Source: a virus
IMG/VR virus record: IMGVR_UViG_3300031601_000007
Coordinates: 1 to 35,903 of that record
Strand: one strand, 5' to 3'
Length of the DNA: 35,903 nucleotides
Shown piece after piece: positions 2,026 to 35,632 of the stretch. Positions within the stretch are counted from its first letter, which is position 1; each line of letters opens with the position of its first letter. Below the pieces are notes generated by a model. The model saw nothing but the letters and a program-made list of their open reading frames with translations, searched no databases and was not told where the DNA came from. A program made the position numbers and the translations under genes.

Positions 2026-2238
2026 ATGAAAAAAAAGAAGATTACAAACATACAATTGGCTCATGAATCTGGTTTGAGTTTAAACCAAGTGTCAAGGATA
2101 TTGACAGGCACCAGCGGTACATCAAAGAAGACCGCAATCATTATAAGTGAAGCAGCATCTCGGTTAGGGGTTGATATCAGTTCGGTTGATGTCATGTTTA
2201 ATTATCATCATGTTCGGCGGGTTTTGAGGGGGGAGTGA
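2026..2238 (+). CDS. Small HTH regulator, candidate phage repressor (70 aa)
   Basis: A helix-turn-helix covers roughly residues 8-50: LAHESG forms the positioning helix, LNQVSRILTG the recognition helix, and a third helix rich in Ala/Ser follows. The order resembles Cro/XRE or LacI-type DNA-binding heads. No C-terminal dimerisation or cleavage domain is present, so if it is the repressor it is a minimal one. The start has no ribosome-binding site and may be leaderless. It faces the early leftward operon across a palindromic operator. The next gene begins 1 bp after its stop, with a GGGGGGAG site inside its last codons, so the two are co-transcribed. Confidence 0.75.
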   Translation: MKKKKITNIQLAHESGLSLNQVSRILTGTSGTSKKTAIIISEAASRLGVDISSVDVMFNYHHVRRVLRGE

Positions 2239-2239
2239 A

Positions 2240-3160
2240 ATGTATGGACATGATTTGATTAATGATTTGAATAAAATATATTCCAAATCAAGAAAGAGAG
2301 ATTTTTCGGAAAGCATACAGATGATCAAAGACTCCCAACATTTTTATATGGGGGACCTTGATGGGGTACTGTCTATAACTGACAAAATTTTCAATAATGC
2401 TGAATTGTCACATCACGGGTTTTTCACCGGTGCTCTTGGGGAGAATACCAAAGCCCCATTTGATAAAATATGTATTTATTGCGATGTTAAATCATTCCAA
2501 GAACAGACTGTTTTGAAATATGATGGGTTTGATTCAGGGTATAGACCGGACGATAATAAAATATCGAGAGCTGCATATTGTGTCAATAGTGTTGATAAAA
2601 GCGTTTATTTAGATATGTATTCGTATTTGCCGTACTATAAATGCTGGATGTGTTGTCCATATACGATTGTGTTGACCATGGACGGGGACAAGGAAAACAC
2701 CTCTTTATTTTTAAGGAATCGACCAGGCTTTGGATTAGATGTTCCAAAACAAGGGATAGATATCGCCTTTGATTCTGTCGTTTATGAAAAGGTTTGGCAT
2801 TTGAACGCTATTTTGATGCTCCTAAATACAAAAAACATAACCACTATAGACAACCCGCCCCCAGCAAAACTAAACAAAAAGCGCGTCAAGAACGGCAAGC
2901 AACCCTTATTCACATATAAGACCCTACGCCTACAGCTACCTGCGAAGAGGCGTAAAAAAGGATCTGGACCAGCCAAGGCAAGCGATAATACGACACGTCT
3001 CCACCTTTGCCGGGGGCACTTTAAGACCTACACCTCTGACAAGCCACTTTTAGGCAGGTTCACGGGCCGGTACTGGTGGCAACCTCACGCCAGGGGCAAC
3101 AAGACACATGGCATAGTAATGAAGGATTATAAAGTAAGCGTTAACACAGATAAACATTGA
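2240..3160 (+). CDS. Conserved phage protein of unknown function (306 aa)
   Basis: The start at 2240 follows a strong GGGGGGAG site one base after the HTH gene stop. The N-terminal two thirds are mixed alpha/beta with scattered Cys (for example CWMCC near residue 137). A basic proline-rich linker lies around residues 205-240. The C-terminus carries LHLCRGHFKTY...PLLGRFTGRYWW (about residues 256-284), a motif I recall from many phage proteins of unknown role, often near the lysogeny region. There is no transmembrane segment or signal peptide. Co-transcription with a repressor-like gene suggests expression in the lysogen. The function is not known to me; nucleic-acid binding is possible from the basic C-terminus. 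Confidence 0.8.
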   Translation: MYGHDLINDLNKIYSKSRKRDFSESIQMIKDSQHFYMGDLDGVLSITDKIFNNAELSHHGFFTGALGENTKAPFDKICIYCDVKSFQEQTVLKYDGFDSGYRPDDNKISRAAYCVNSVDKSVYLDMYSYLPYYKCWMCCPYTIVLTMDGDKENTSLFLRNRPGFGLDVPKQGIDIAFDSVVYEKVWHLNAILMLLNTKNITTIDNPPPAKLNKKRVKNGKQPLFTYKTLRLQLPAKRRKKGSGPAKASDNTTRLHLCRGHFKTYTSDKPLLGRFTGRYWWQPHARGNKTHGIVMKDYKVSVNTDKH

Positions 3161-3185
3161 CAGATGGAGTCAAATTTAGTATCTT
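3157..3185 (+). promoter_or_regulatory. Promoter for the structured ncRNA
   Basis: TTGACA at 3157-3162, 17-bp spacer, TATCTT -10 at 3180-3185, the same elements and spacing as the promoter at 1991-2019. It overlaps the last codons of the 306-aa gene. The predicted start near 3191-3192 coincides with the first base of the long stem of the RNA described at 3191-3357. Confidence 0.6.
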
Positions 3186-3190
3186 TGTGA

Positions 3191-3357
3191 TGCGAAGAAA
3201 ACATTTTAAACGGGATTATTTGAACATGGATAAAATAAAATATAATTTTTTGCAGTTGAAAACGTCATGTTCCTGCCCTAGTCCCATGGTTTTCTTCGCA
3301 AGCTGCAAATGTTCAAAAGCCCAATCGACCCTAAAAAGTCTTTTGGGCTTTTTTTAT
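3191..3357 (+). ncRNA. Candidate ~165-nt structured noncoding RNA with pseudoknot
   Basis: Nested stems: a perfect 12-bp closing stem 3191-3202/3289-3300 (TGCGAAGAAAAC and its complement); a 7-pair stem with one G-U, 3212-3218/3279-3285; and a 7-bp stem 3222-3228/3266-3272 capped by an AT-rich loop of ~37 nt. In that loop TTTGCAGT (3249-3256) can pair with GCTGCAAA (3302-3309), one base after the closing stem, giving an 8-pair pseudoknot with one G-U. An intrinsic terminator (3315-3357) follows. A promoter places the 5' end exactly at the closing stem. No frame across it looks coding. I do not recognise the family. It may act as a regulatory or protein-binding RNA made in the lysogen. Confidence 0.65.
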
Positions 3358-3358
3358 T
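3315..3358 (+). terminator. Intrinsic terminator of the ncRNA
   Basis: 10-bp stem (AAAAGCCCAA at 3315-3324 with its complement at 3343-3352), probably extended by GAC/GTC inside the loop, followed by a run of T. It ends the candidate ncRNA and probably also read-through from the 306-aa gene. Confidence 0.85.
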
Positions 3359-3723
3359 TTTACGACTCCATCCCACGGGGAAAGAGGACCGAGCCTGTGC
3401 ATGCACCTGCATACTGGCAACAAACGACTTCCAATGGCATAACTTTTTATTTGTCCTGGGTTTTAATAAAAACTGGGCAGCTTTCCAGCATGTAACGAAA
3501 GTGCATGGATAGGCAACAGTGCATGCCTTAAAACACTGATCCAGGAGGTTTGAGTATTCCTGATTATAATAACTCAGTCGCAAAATGGGATGGAGCTTCA
3601 AGGTGTGTTTGATGGATAGGCCCGAATCAGGGCATGCAGTTGGTTGGTTAAGAAACAGATACTTTATGAGGATAACTTCTGTTGAATGCCTTTGACTCAA
3701 GAGATTCCTATGGAGAAAAATAA
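3359..3723. other. 365-bp stretch without a supported gene
   Basis: No frame here has both a credible start and protein-like composition. A 153-codon minus frame crosses the region, but it also runs through the ncRNA and its terminator. Short repeats of GCATG(C) occur (near 3398, 3503, 3521 and 3632). The stretch may be remnant DNA of a lost gene. The last 15 bp carry the GGAG site of the broken zinc-ribbon gene at 3724. Confidence 0.5.
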
Positions 3724-3918
3724 ATGAGAGCAAAAACAAGATGCCCCAGATGCAAAAAGAAGCAACGGCTTTAAGTTGAGTTACACAACGGTGCCGAAGT
3801 CATCAATATAGTTGATGGCGTGAACTGCTTAAAAGCCCTCTGCCGTGAATGTGGCCACTCCTGGCCTGTTAAAAAACAATATCCGACAACATCAGATTAC
3901 CATCCGGTGATGCCATGA
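3724..3918 (+). pseudogene. Zinc-ribbon microprotein interrupted by an in-frame TAA
   Basis: ATG at 3724 (GGAG 12 bp upstream) opens a 65-codon frame. It encodes a CPRC knuckle (residues 7-10), then an in-frame TAA at codon 17. After the stop the frame continues with a plausible second half: a hydrophobic/acidic strand region, a CREC-GHSW knuckle and a short tail that stops at 3918. The four Cys in two CxxC pairs straddle the stop, so the full ribbon needs both halves. The downstream 50-aa ORF overlaps the final stop as ATGA, typical of coupled real genes. A nonsense mutation, a sequencing error or a recoding event would all explain it; a mutation is the simplest. Confidence 0.6.
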
Positions 3919-4074: not shown

Positions 4075-4113
4075 TAAAAAAGCGCCTACAGGTATTATTC
4101 TGTAGGCGTTTTA
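4075..4113. terminator. Bidirectional intrinsic terminator
   Basis: 9-bp stem CGCCTACAG (4083-4091) with its complement (4100-4108), 8-nt loop, T-run to the right and an A-run on the left that reads as T on the minus strand. It separates the rightward lysogeny-side cluster from the converging late operon that ends with the tailspike. Confidence 0.9.
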
Positions 4114-4134: not shown

Positions 4135-6795
4135 TCAATTCCTATTCCTGATCTGCCCATACCGGAATCGCCAGTTTTGCGTACCGATCGTGATAGTATC
4201 AGCAGTTGGGTTATAAAGATGAACGTAACAATAATTATCAGACGGCTGAATGGATACCACCAGCCCTTCAAGATATTTTTGTGCAGACCAATCTATTAAA
4301 GCCCAGGAAGAGTTCAGTCCAAACATTGGCACCTGAAAAACATATGACGCCCCTGCTGTTATCGCTGGTGGAGCATAGCCAAAATAAAGAAGCCCAATTG
4401 GATCAATAACGCCGCCAGATATATTTGGACTAATTCCTTCTAGTGTAGTGAGGTCATAAAGAATGCCTGTCCCAAGATTCCTGTTGTTAATGAAATCAAG
4501 TTCTTCAGCCTCTTCACGTCCCATGAAAACCCCCGTATACCCACCAACTGAAATAGTGTTATCAGATATAAGCCCAGAACTATATTCACCGGCAGTAATC
4601 CACCGAATATAAATTCCAGCCCCACCGGCTGTTTGGGCGCAAATAAGATTTGAATTAGCAGTGGATGCCGCTTCTAAAGTAGGGCTATAACTAAACCATT
4701 CTCCGATACGCCCCTGCTTATCAAAAGTAATTGTTATCGTATCTATTTCATCAGTGGTGTATGTAGCTATTGATACTCTACCATCAGTCACGAGTCCATC
4801 AACATCACCATGTGAAAGATTTAAAATTCGTATCGTCTCAACAAGAGTTAATGCCAAAGTTGCTTTTATATCAATTTCATAATCTGTTGTGGGAGCTGCT
4901 GGGTCTACAAAGGTATAAATGGCTCCTGGAAAACTAGCATTTGCGTAATTAAACCTTATATTGTCTCCATTGACTGGATTGCCTGAAAACGTAATAGTTC
5001 CAACTGCTTTAGATTGTGTATCATCTGCTGTAAGGCCATCTATAACATTGTTGCTACAGTTCAGTTCTCTAACAGACCTAATTACAATGCCATGCCCATA
5101 AGAATCTTTTATTACATTATTATTAGCTGTCATACCATCAATGGCTCTAATCGTTAAACCACCAATTTCATCGGTATTATCTTCGCGCCCGAAACCCTCA
5201 ATACTGTTCCCGGTTACAACCATATTGCTTCCCATGACAGCAGGGTAAACCGTAGCGGGGGCTTCAGTTGCCGCGTTGCCAGTGACAATAATACCGTGTG
5301 TTTGGTCTTCAGGGTCTATTATCTCTCCTGTCCCGTGGTCGTTTTTAACAGTATTGTTTGAGATAACACAACCTACCGGAACAGAGCCTATTGCGCCCGT
5401 ATTAGACGCACCTCCTACTAAAATACCAGTTCGACAATTATATATTTTATTATCTACAAAAGAAAGATATTGACCTCCATGGGTATCTAATCCCTCCCAT
5501 ACATAATTGTTTGAAATTACATTCCCTTGTACAATAACATGTTCAGATAATGGTTTAACCGCTAATGTTCCCGTTGATTTAGACACTACTATGCCGTAGG
5601 CTAAATCCCCCGTAACCTGATCAGTTAAAGGGCCTGCAATACCATCAATTTCATTATTAATTATGCGTCCCTGCAAAACAGACAGTGTAGCAATACCAGT
5701 ATAATAATTGTCATATACGTAATTATTGCTAATTTCGAAGTTCTCAACAAATTCAAATCTAATCCCAGTATTCCAGTTGGTTAATTTGGTGTCTTTTATT
5801 TTTATCCCAGAAATATAATCAGATGCAGATGCACCAACAGCTATGATACCAAATTGCAGATTTGCAGATAATAAAGCTTGAGGACCATCTAATTTTATGC
5901 CGTAAATCTCCACATCAGATGCGTGTATCTTAATTCCTCTGCTTTCGATTAAATCAGACGGCCAATTGAAAGTAACCCCATAACCAGAAATTGTTAACGA
6001 TTTATTAATATCTATATATGCTGACATCGCGTATTCCCCAGGAGGGATAACTATCATGCTCCCGGCTTCCGCTGCTGCAATTGTCGCTGTAAAGGCCGCT
6101 GTGTTTTCAAGATATGTGCTGTCTGTAAGAAACCCAAACCATGCTGGATTAGCTGATTTTAATCCTGTTATAGGGCCGGATATAATAACGCCAGCGTCCA
6201 CTTTTAGCGTTATATTTTCTGGTTTTTCCCAGGCTGTAATAAACGTGTATGTTGTCGTGGCGGCTCCAGAATTGTGAATAAAGTGAATGGTCGCGGCATC
6301 ACCGGCTGCTTGATCTCCATAATATTTAATAGTGTTGTTATCCCCAGTAATCCCTTGGTCTGAAGCATTGTAATCAGGCGTAAAAACAGATAACCCTATA
6401 TACTCCGCTGAAAAAGGGACATAGTAAACCTGAGATCCGTATGAGTCTAAAACCTTAAGGCTGTAATCACCATCAACCATTAGCGTTACTACAGACCCCA
6501 AATATGTGGGTGTTCCACCTGCGTTCGTGTTTACTGGCTGCGAGACCTCGACTCTTGTGCCATCTTCCTGGATAATAGTTATTTGTTTCTGATTCGCGGG
6601 AATCACCGGGTCAAGGTCTGGGATACCGACATAAATAGACCCCAAAGAAATCGGCTTCCCTTTGTCTGGGTTTGGGTAATATTGGGGGTTGAATTGTACT
6701 GTGTTAAGAGCGCATGCCAAGGAATAATACAATGCGAATATTACCGCAAAAGCTAAGGTTTTGAGGTAAAGGCTAAGCCTTTTACTTTTTATCAT
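4135..6795 (-). CDS. Tailspike: P22 gp9-like head-binding domain, beta-helix and signal-peptide-like N-terminus
   Basis: Last late gene. Residues 1-30 are KR-rich then hydrophobic (LKTLAFAVIFALYYSLACA), like a Sec signal or membrane anchor. Residues ~35-130 match the P22 tailspike head-binding fold as I recall it: ...GSIYVGIPDLDPVIPANQ, EDGTRVEVSQP and YGSQVYYVPF. From ~205 there is a right-handed parallel beta-helix signature (VIPPGEYAMSAYIDI, then many short NN-V-I turns) of the type found in polysaccharide-cleaving spikes, and a beta-rich C-terminal part. The start at 6795 has a strong AAGGAG site 9 bp upstream and overlaps the ejection-protein stop, so the hydrophobic start looks genuine. 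The spike probably binds and may cut surface polysaccharide; the enzymatic residues are not identifiable. Confidence 0.88.
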   Translation of the reverse strand: MIKSKRLSLYLKTLAFAVIFALYYSLACALNTVQFNPQYYPNPDKGKPISLGSIYVGIPDLDPVIPANQKQITIIQEDGTRVEVSQPVNTNAGGTPTYLGSVVTLMVDGDYSLKVLDSYGSQVYYVPFSAEYIGLSVFTPDYNASDQGITGDNNTIKYYGDQAAGDAATIHFIHNSGAATTTYTFITAWEKPENITLKVDAGVIISGPITGLKSANPAWFGFLTDSTYLENTAAFTATIAAAEAGSMIVIPPGEYAMSAYIDINKSLTISGYGVTFNWPSDLIESRGIKIHASDVEIYGIKLDGPQALLSANLQFGIIAVGASASDYISGIKIKDTKLTNWNTGIRFEFVENFEISNNYVYDNYYTGIATLSVLQGRIINNEIDGIAGPLTDQVTGDLAYGIVVSKSTGTLAVKPLSEHVIVQGNVISNNYVWEGLDTHGGQYLSFVDNKIYNCRTGILVGGASNTGAIGSVPVGCVISNNTVKNDHGTGEIIDPEDQTHGIIVTGNAATEAPATVYPAVMGSNMVVTGNSIEGFGREDNTDEIGGLTIRAIDGMTANNNVIKDSYGHGIVIRSVRELNCSNNVIDGLTADDTQSKAVGTITFSGNPVNGDNIRFNYANASFPGAIYTFVDPAAPTTDYEIDIKATLALTLVETIRILNLSHGDVDGLVTDGRVSIATYTTDEIDTITITFDKQGRIGEWFSYSPTLEAASTANSNLICAQTAGGAGIYIRWITAGEYSSGLISDNTISVGGYTGVFMGREEAEELDFINNRNLGTGILYDLTTLEGISPNISGGVIDPIGLLYFGYAPPAITAGASYVFQVPMFGLNSSWALIDWSAQKYLEGLVVSIQPSDNYCYVHLYNPTADTITIGTQNWRFRYGQIRNRN

Positions 6796-32336: not shown

Positions 32337-32638
32337 AAAAAAGAATCTGTGACAGATGCGGGAATAATTCATTGCTGCTGAAAGAAAAAGGCAGTGCCTC
32401 ACTGTGCCCAACCTGCATAGTAGAGATAATCCCAGAAATAAAACGGGCAAAGAAAACCCGCCCCGTAGATGTGCTGGTAATCGCCCGGGAACATTTCAAA
32501 AAAACCCACTCCGGGGGCAATTATTTCCTCCGCAATATCCCGGATGACCTGCTGGCAAAGATCAAACAGAAGATGCATGACGACAAGGTTTTTCAGCGTG
32601 ATATCATCCTTTCCGCCCTAGAAGCATATCTTAAATAA
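32333..32638 (+). CDS. Zinc-ribbon plus ribbon-helix-helix protein (101 aa)
   Basis: The N-terminus has CDRC (residues 6-9) and CPTC (25-28), a small zinc ribbon. Residues ~62-100 (NYFLRNIPDDLLAKIKQKM and RDIILSALEAYLK) have the beta-strand-helix-helix pattern of Arc/MetJ-type ribbon-helix-helix DNA-binding domains. A single-chain fusion of the two is unusual. GGAGG precedes the ATG. As last gene of the cassette before its terminator it may autoregulate from the palindrome in the upstream promoter or act on other phage operators. DNA binding is inferred from fold-like pattern. Confidence 0.72.
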   Translation: MKKRICDRCGNNSLLLKEKGSASLCPTCIVEIIPEIKRAKKTRPVDVLVIAREHFKKTHSGGNYFLRNIPDDLLAKIKQKMHDDKVFQRDIILSALEAYLK

Positions 32639-32650
32639 CCCACACAAAGA

Positions 32651-32690
32651 ATAAAAGGCCAGCCCCGTGTTTTGGAGCTGGCCTTTTTTG
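32651..32690. terminator. Bidirectional intrinsic terminator
   Basis: 11-bp stem AAAAGGCCAGC (32653-32663) with its complement (32677-32687), 13-nt loop, T-run rightward and a T-rich run on the minus strand. It closes the rightward cassette and the converging leftward early transcript. Confidence 0.9.
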
Positions 32691-32706
32691 TTTGAGATAT
32701 AATATT

Positions 32707-32913
32707 TTATAAACTTAGATAACCATTTATGTTATCTCGGGTAAATTTCCTAACTGGCTTGCCCACTCGTTTGCCCATCTTTACTCCGTTTATGTAGTAC
32801 ACTTTACTCCAGTTTCGACGACTATTTTCAGCAGAGCCTGGGGTAGGATGTCTGCCTTTTTTGGTTGCCCAGGCAGGATTTATTTTTTCCAAATTTACAG
32901 CTTTTTCCACCAC
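32707..32913 (-). CDS. Small basic protein (68 aa), GTG start
   Basis: The start is GTG at 32913 (or the next codon, also GTG) after AGGAGG. The sequence is basic with aromatic residues: NPAWATKKGRHPTP near 12, NWSKVYYINGVKMGKRVGKP near 33, then a short C-terminus. It has no Cys and no membrane span. It is separated from rusA by a 28-bp palindrome and has its own TATAAT (32934-32939). As the last early leftward gene it could be a late-gene activator, but nothing in the sequence proves this. Confidence 0.55.
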   Translation of the reverse strand: MVEKAVNLEKINPAWATKKGRHPTPGSAENSRRNWSKVYYINGVKMGKRVGKPVRKFTRDNINGYLSL

Positions 32914-32933
32914 CCCTCCTGATGTCTTTATAT

Positions 32934-34087: not shown

Positions 34088-34266
34088 TTCTGCCCCCCCA
34101 ATGGGTTTGCCCCTGATTTTTTTCTTGGTTGGGAACAAACAGCCACATGTTTGTAAACATATTTTTTGCAGTCTGCACAAGCATCCGGATCATCTTTCAA
34201 CGAAAATTTAAGGCAATGATCATAAAACATACATTTTGTTTTTTGTTTTGATATTTTTTTAATCAT
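34084..34266 (-). CDS. Cys-rich basic protein (60 aa)
   Basis: The ATG overlaps the preceding stop (ATGA) and its stop overlaps the next ATG. Cys pattern C-x5-C-x11-C-x2-C between residues 12 and 33 (MFYDHCLKFSLKDDPDACADC) followed by a basic C-terminus suggests one zinc site. Lysine-rich N-terminus. Unknown role in the early operon between the P-position protein and RusA. Confidence 0.65.
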   Translation of the reverse strand: MIKKISKQKTKCMFYDHCLKFSLKDDPDACADCKKYVYKHVAVCSQPRKKSGANPLGGQK

Positions 34267-34823: not shown

Positions 34824-35632
34824 AATCCATGCTCCTTTGCATAGGTTTCAATTTCTATGCGCCTGCGTTCTTTTTCACCAGGGCCACTATCCCCGTTTTT
34901 GTTTTCAAAATACGATGGTTTGATGGTCTGCCAGTTATTTTCCATGGCAATCTCAAGACTATCAAAGATATTCATACCGACACCCCTACATTTTTTCAAC
35001 TCCCGGAATAGCCCATTAATTCCCTTTTCGGTTTGGTATTGTTGTTTTTTAGGCTTGAGCATTCTGTATTCAAAAAAAGAAATGATCTGGTCTTTCAAAT
35101 CCTGGTAGTCCTCAACCTCAATTTTCCGAATTAAATAATTTTTAAGTTCTATTTTTGTTGGTTTCAGATTTTCCCCCTGGGGGGTTAAGGGGGGTTGTTC
35201 TTCTTCACATTCTTTAATGCTTACATTCTTGTTTGTGGTTAGCTGCTGGTTACTTGTTGGTTGGTTGCTGGTTACTTGATGGTTAATGTGCTGGTTGATA
35301 TTGTTTTCGTCTACTTGGTAAATACCCCAATTCACTACACTAATTATACTAAATTTGTTGGTTACTTTGATGGTTAGATTTTGGAGTTTTTTTAGATTTT
35401 GAACGCACGTTCTAATTGTTTGTTCAGACAGCTTTAATTCTTTTGAAGCTGCCTTACGACCAAAAATAAAGTCTCCAGGGTTAAGATCGACCATCTGCAT
35501 TCCCACCATCTGTTTCCTTTTTTTGTGTGATGCTTTCATAAGACACCATGTCCAAAAAACCCACAATTTATGATTCTGCATCAAACCCGAGTCAACCGAT
35601 TTCCTCCATAATTTTACATACCCTTGATCCAT
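34820..35632 (-). CDS. Phage replication initiator, O-like with N-terminal winged helix (270 aa)
   Basis: Residues ~1-105 (GYVKLWRKSVDSGL, FWTWCLMKASHKKRK, LNPGDFIFGRKAASKELKLS, VVNWGIYQ) match the winged-helix head of phage replication proteins. An Asn/Gln/Thr-rich linker (~110-145) follows and is encoded by repeated DNA that may be the origin. The C-terminal ~100 residues are helical, DnaD-like, with a charged end. The layout is that of lambda O, which binds iterons inside its own gene. GGGGGTTC precedes ATG 35632. The next gene starts on its stop. Confidence 0.8.
   Translation of the reverse strand: MDQGYVKLWRKSVDSGLMQNHKLWVFWTWCLMKASHKKRKQMVGMQMVDLNPGDFIFGRKAASKELKLSEQTIRTCVQNLKKLQNLTIKVTNKFSIISVVNWGIYQVDENNINQHINHQVTSNQPTSNQQLTTNKNVSIKECEEEQPPLTPQGENLKPTKIELKNYLIRKIEVEDYQDLKDQIISFFEYRMLKPKKQQYQTEKGINGLFRELKKCRGVGMNIFDSLEIAMENNWQTIKPSYFENKNGDSGPGEKERRRIEIETYAKEHGL
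35244..35376. repeat. Iteron-like repeats inside the initiator gene, possible origin
   Basis: TGCTGGTTACTTG occurs at 35244-35256 and 35266-35278 (22 bp apart), a partial TGCTGGTT at 35289-35296 (23 bp further), and a variant TTGGTTACTTTGATGGTTA near 35359-35376. An AT-rich stretch lies from about 35331 to 35400. The region encodes the Asn/Gln/Thr linker of the O-like protein. Repeats at about two helix turns next to AT-rich DNA in the O gene mirror lambda ori. Origin function is inferred. Confidence 0.55.

Follow-up and report, generated by a model that had tools for sequence, protein, structure and literature searches.

The window analyzed here, meaning the whole 35,903-nucleotide (nt) stretch of the linear virus record IMGVR_UViG_3300031601_000007, comes from a P22-portal-type phage; its products include a P22-like portal, a terminase, and a tailspike of the head-binding/beta-helix type. 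Among named genomes, the nearest terminase (60%) is that of a Desulfonatronovibrio MAG, which hints at a sulfate-reducing host. No tyrosine integrase was found in the 35.9-kb fragment, and the repressor region is the one feature that points to a temperate life. At the left end, the early genes run leftward and include an SbcC-like ATPase, recognized by eye from the sequence, and a phrog_12688 protein. Rightward, the gene for a 70-amino-acid (aa) repressor is followed by a gene for a 306-aa protein, by the RNA feature at 3157 to 3358, and by the convergent tailspike gene (4135 to 6795, minus strand).

The repressor gene (2026 to 2238, plus strand) encodes a protein of the Cro/CI type (Pfam HTH_3; E value, 2e-6) for which no relatives were found, and it has a promoter at 1991. 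Its ATG sits at its own predicted transcription start (2014 to 2026), and the repressor mRNA is therefore probably leaderless. The 306-aa gene (2240 to 3160, plus strand; phrog_20769) lies in the repressor operon, immediately upstream of the RNA feature, and apparently shares the terminator of the RNA. One virus relative of the 306-aa protein was found, at 32%, along with relatives of its C-terminal region in actinophages, plasmids, and some genomes; no such RNA was found beside or downstream of any of these. A profile search gave no PDB relative for this family. The C-terminal region of the protein reads RGHFKTYT..PL.GRFTGRYWWQ..ARGN, and its distant relatives adjoin antirepressor or HTH genes in the actinophages Mutaforma13 and BritBrat and also in plasmids. 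Between the RNA feature and the tailspike gene is a zinc-ribbon-like small open reading frame (ORF) (CPRC...CREC; 3724 to 3917) with an in-frame TAA at codon 17, which we take to resemble Com of Mu-like phages.

Promoter, stems, and terminator of the predicted RNA

The RNA feature begins with a sigma70-type promoter on the plus strand (3157 to 3185), composed of TTGACA (3157 to 3162), a 17-nt spacer, and TATCTT (3180 to 3185). It matches 10 of 12 consensus bases, and its −35 hexamer overlaps the TGA (3158 to 3160) of the 306-aa gene. The transcription start predicted from it lies at about 3190 to 3192. This promoter had been described in the initial annotation as copying the elements and spacing of the repressor promoter, and its hexamers and spacing are indeed those of the repressor promoter at 1991 to 2019; however, the extended −10 TG is present in the repressor promoter only and is absent from that of the RNA.

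A 17-bp palindrome, AACACATTTAATGTGTT (1968 to 1984), lies between the divergent promoters, where it overlaps the −35 of the leftward promoter, and is probably the single, putative operator of the repressor. Copies with fewer than four mismatches were not found elsewhere in the window, nor were copies with fewer than five near the RNA promoter. Thus, if the palindrome is the repressor operator, the RNA promoter would not be under its control and should fire in the lysogen. Expression of the RNA in the lysogen is plausible given the consensus promoter and the lack of a close copy of the putative operator nearby. The RNA gene is also bracketed by an inverted repeat, GATGGAGTC (3163 to 3171) and GACTCCATC (3364 to 3372), whose copies are 192 nt apart, and a third related copy, TGGGATGGAG, is found at 3586 to 3595. 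We found no support for this repeat being an operator or the end of an element.

With its start taken from the promoter and its end from the terminator, the predicted small RNA is about 160 to 169 nt long (3190 to 3358, plus strand). It opens with a perfect 12-bp stem (stem 1; 3191 to 3202 with 3289 to 3300), on which the sequence, the repeat finder, and the fold agree. Within it, the fold contains stem 2, with seven pairs including one G-U (3212 to 3218 with 3279 to 3285), and stem 3, with eight pairs including one G-U (3222 to 3229 with 3265 to 3272), which encloses an A/U-rich apical loop of 35 nt (3230 to 3264; mean unpaired probability of about 0.68 over 3229 to 3266). An intrinsic terminator follows (3315 to 3356), consisting of a hairpin (3315 to 3329 with 3338 to 3352) and then a T run. 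The imperfect pairing of this hairpin (87% over 15 nt) caused a simple scan to miss it, whereas the fold, the repeat finder, and the layout descriptor show it. The terminator scan found no other plus-strand terminator between 2026 and 3315. Stem 1, the two inner stems, and the terminator had all been proposed in the initial annotation, and each is present where it had been placed.

The region from 3191 to 3358 folds at −45.5 kcal/mol (z = −4.46), and none of 200 shuffles was as good. Without the terminator (3191 to 3301), the z score is −3.43, which is unexceptional, since about 25 of the 1,936 tiles of 111 nt in this phage (roughly 1%) reach the same value; taken alone, the fold is moderate, not exceptional, as an argument against chance. 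Outside the tRNA, fold z scores of about −4.5 to −5.2 were also seen at 32598 to 32931 and at 35373, on or near early genes, with a hairpin around 32655 to 32685 inside the former.

Among the fold, the loop-tail pairing, and the layout, the layout is the strongest of the arguments against chance. It was evaluated in 1,500 windows simulated with a first-order Markov model in 400-base blocks, the criteria being a promoter, a stem of at least 9 bp at the start that encloses a similar length, and a terminator within 60 nt. The full layout occurs once in the window, compared with 8 occurrences in the 1,500 simulated windows (about 0.5%); related phage DNA, 715 kb in all, contains none. A promoter with a 12-bp stem, the terminator not being required, occurred 14 times in the 1,500 simulated windows, and a product estimate puts the chance of the full arrangement with a 12-bp stem at roughly 1e-4. 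These figures overstate the surprise, because the criteria were set after the feature had been seen.

Tail pairings and a possible pseudoknot

The tail at 3302 to 3317 (GCTGCAAATGTTCAAA) is complementary in all 16 of its bases to two inner stretches that lie about 21 nt apart, one of the pairs being G-U. The first pairing, PK1, joins loop positions 3249 to 3256 (TTTGCAGT) to tail positions 3302 to 3309 through seven Watson-Crick pairs and one G-U. It is the eight-pair loop-to-tail match noted previously, and it is present in the sequence; an equally good loop-tail pairing has a chance probability of about 0.007 to 0.016, which is moderate. The second pairing, PK2, which goes beyond the earlier description, joins the inner site at 3219 to 3227 (TTTGAACAT) to 3309 to 3317 through nine perfect pairs (P of about 0.005). 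PK2 excludes stem 3 (GAACATG/CATGTTC), because CATGTTC and AATGTTC offer nearly the same complement twice.

The energies of the isolated helices, calculated as nearest-neighbor values that exclude pseudoknot loop penalties, are close (−8.2 kcal/mol for stem 3, −9.0 for PK1, and −7.6 for PK2), and for this reason the RNA may adopt two states, one with stem 3 and PK1 and one with both tail pairings. Stacked as a joined duplex, the two tail pairings reach −21.6 kcal/mol. About 27 stacked pairs lie between the tail and the loop, so that a pseudoknot would need sharp bends at the internal loops and its reach is tight. A pseudoknot that locks the fold is possible, with a competing tail pairing present.

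Searches for relatives and comparison with known RNAs

Homologues of the RNA were not found by blastn, whether the targets were phages and plasmids or the related virus loci together with 40 whole virus records. Scans of a virus collection with patterns for the 12-bp stem and three exact stretches returned no true homologue. Three candidates were set aside as chance matches: a 21-nt match at a locus without the remainder of the RNA (L083), a match lying antisense in a membrane glycosyltransferase-like gene (L175), and a 31-nt match (L307). The covariance model R1, built from one sequence and therefore weak for diverged RNAs, detected no homologue in 58 sources (857 kb), in 395 genomes from the phylum to which the nearest terminase host belongs, or in 126 pattern-hit and related loci, where its best matches were short stubs around the seed that had retrieved them. 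A DNA search of 348 genomes from the class of that host also gave no homologue. With no homologues found for an analysis of covariation, the pseudoknot stays a prediction.

The initial annotation held that no family has this layout. This is borne out for Rfam, in which the sole match above the gathering score was a tRNA at another place in the window, while a permissive threshold brought up nothing relevant to the feature. However, a 3′-end small RNA (sRNA) with its own promoter and a terminator shared with the mRNA is of a known kind. A retron noncoding RNA would be expected with a reverse transcriptase (PF00078), and none was found in the window. The same is true of Abi_2 (PF07751) for an abiF-associated RNA, which also had no Rfam match; of 14 genomes, the PF07751 control itself matched in just 1, below the cutoff.

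The feature is probably a phage-borne sRNA of this known kind, with its own promoter at a 3′ end, whose predicted structure would be a special feature. Such 3′-end sRNAs, among them DapZ and the MicL precursor, are bacterial, several are Hfq bound, and targets are known; in DapZ, the promoter coincides with the stop codon of the preceding gene or lies just ahead of it, and the terminator is common with the mRNA (PMC9438474). The RNA resembles DapZ in the overlap of its consensus TTGACA with the TGA and in its hairpin at 3315 to 3352, which is the only plus-strand terminator found after the repressor start and is putatively shared with the mRNA. Unlike DapZ and the MicL precursor, it is carried by a phage and has a 12-bp stem at +1.

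By position, not by sequence, the RNA can also be likened to svsR, a 77-nt region with a single hairpin at the 3′ end of cI in E. coli prophage NC-SV, which is conserved in Enterobacteriaceae and limits infection by virulent phages (PMC12803456). Both lie at the 3′ end of a repressor region, but the RNA described here comes after a second gene, has roughly double the length, and is an orphan. STnc6030 of the P22-related prophage BTP1 is a lysogen-expressed antisense RNA of several hundred nt, directed against tail and injection genes, that acts in superinfection exclusion (PMC7067206); in contrast, no antisense relation exists here, the longest complement to the tailspike mRNA being 9 nt. IsrK of prophage Gifsy-1 is a dual small and messenger RNA with two isoforms (PMC4825925), and, by description, a read-through form that we infer from the repressor promoter may be set beside it. 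RNA-seq of mycobacteriophages has revealed abundant noncoding RNAs without known function (PMC5712189).

Proposed function and alternative explanations

We read positions 3157 to 3358 as an sRNA gene that closes the repressor operon at its 3′ end, with a product that would be expressed in the lysogen and work through base pairing, and we give this reading as a whole a probability of about 0.5. It is likely that an independent RNA of roughly this extent is made and, provided that it is made, fairly likely that it acts by base pairing. The promoter that overlaps the TGA ending the 306-aa gene would belong to the sRNA itself, and its terminator would also end the repressor mRNA. The product of about 165 nt would be closed by the 12-bp stem, which would hide the 5′ end, and it would present the A/U-rich loop and the tail. 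Most likely made in the lysogen, the sRNA would pair through its loop or tail with an mRNA of the host or of an incoming phage, and the tail-loop pairing may keep the seeds closed until a target opens them. Within this phage, no target was clearly beyond chance (best P, 0.04 to 0.055), and the same holds for its start regions (best P, about 0.05). Matches of the tail to the leader of the leftward operon (about 1732 to 1749; P = 0.04) and of the loop to a site near 34180, within a coding region (P = 0.05), were unconvincing as targets. The view of the feature as a single structured noncoding RNA beside the repressor is upheld by the layout and by the lack of coding signal, with the pseudoknot lock left as a prediction, whereas the suggested role in superinfection or defense gained no specific support.

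The sequence may instead belong to the mRNA for the repressor and the 306-aa protein, as its terminator-bearing 3′ untranslated end, the promoter match and the 12-bp stem being coincidental or serving to stabilize the mRNA. This operon needs a terminator anyway, and the scan offers no other; furthermore, the fold without the terminator is matched in roughly 1% of windows (z of −3.4), and promoter-like sites of equal scoring are common (16 found versus 9.4 expected in 4.5 kb). We nevertheless consider the absence of an independent RNA rather unlikely, given that the complete in-register layout is rare in simulation and that the promoter combines its 10 matches, a perfect TTGACA among them, with the 17-nt spacing common to the repressor promoter. 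The tail suggests another role, that of a structural RNA working as a ribonucleoprotein or switch, in which PK1 docks, PK2 displaces stem 3, and the RNA is bound by a partner protein, for which the 306-aa product is one possibility. Each tail pairing is improbable by chance, and the tail is wholly complementary to 3219 to 3226 plus 3249 to 3256 in the joined duplex. However, no such RNA accompanies the relatives of the 306-aa protein, and the bends imposed by the intervening stacked pairs weigh against docking; we judge this role unlikely. That the RNA represents a new class of phage lysogeny RNA, a two-state pseudoknotted switch with a 16-nt tail and two docking sites, one of them within a stem, in which tail docking would gate a seed or a protein-binding loop, is decidedly improbable.

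An ATG at 3190, the predicted start, opens a frame that extends to 3495, and the repressor likewise begins at its predicted +1, as a leaderless small protein would. No in-frame stop precedes the terminator, however, and up to that point the frame has a coding score of −0.18 per codon, whereas 95% of true gene segments exceed 0.05. This score is supportive but not decisive, because the genes of the cluster themselves score low (0.02 to 0.03), and the terminator is the stronger argument against coding. Peptide-pattern scans of the virus collection detected no relative, Pfam and PADLOC gave no match, and it is very unlikely that the region is coding. Least probable of all, and barely credible, is a cis-antisense RNA to a toxin or tailspike transcript in the manner of STnc6030 of BTP1: the tailspike gene converges on the region but does not overlap the RNA, a separate hairpin terminator (4083 to 4108) intervenes, complementarity of 10 nt or more is absent, and no convincing minus-strand ORF lies opposite the RNA.

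If the base-pairing sRNA that we favor is transcribed, the repressor region of this uncultured phage of the P22-portal type would gain an apparently orphan sRNA. The lysogen-expressed RNAs known from there are few, and some of them, such as svsR and STnc6030, protect the lysogen against other phages.
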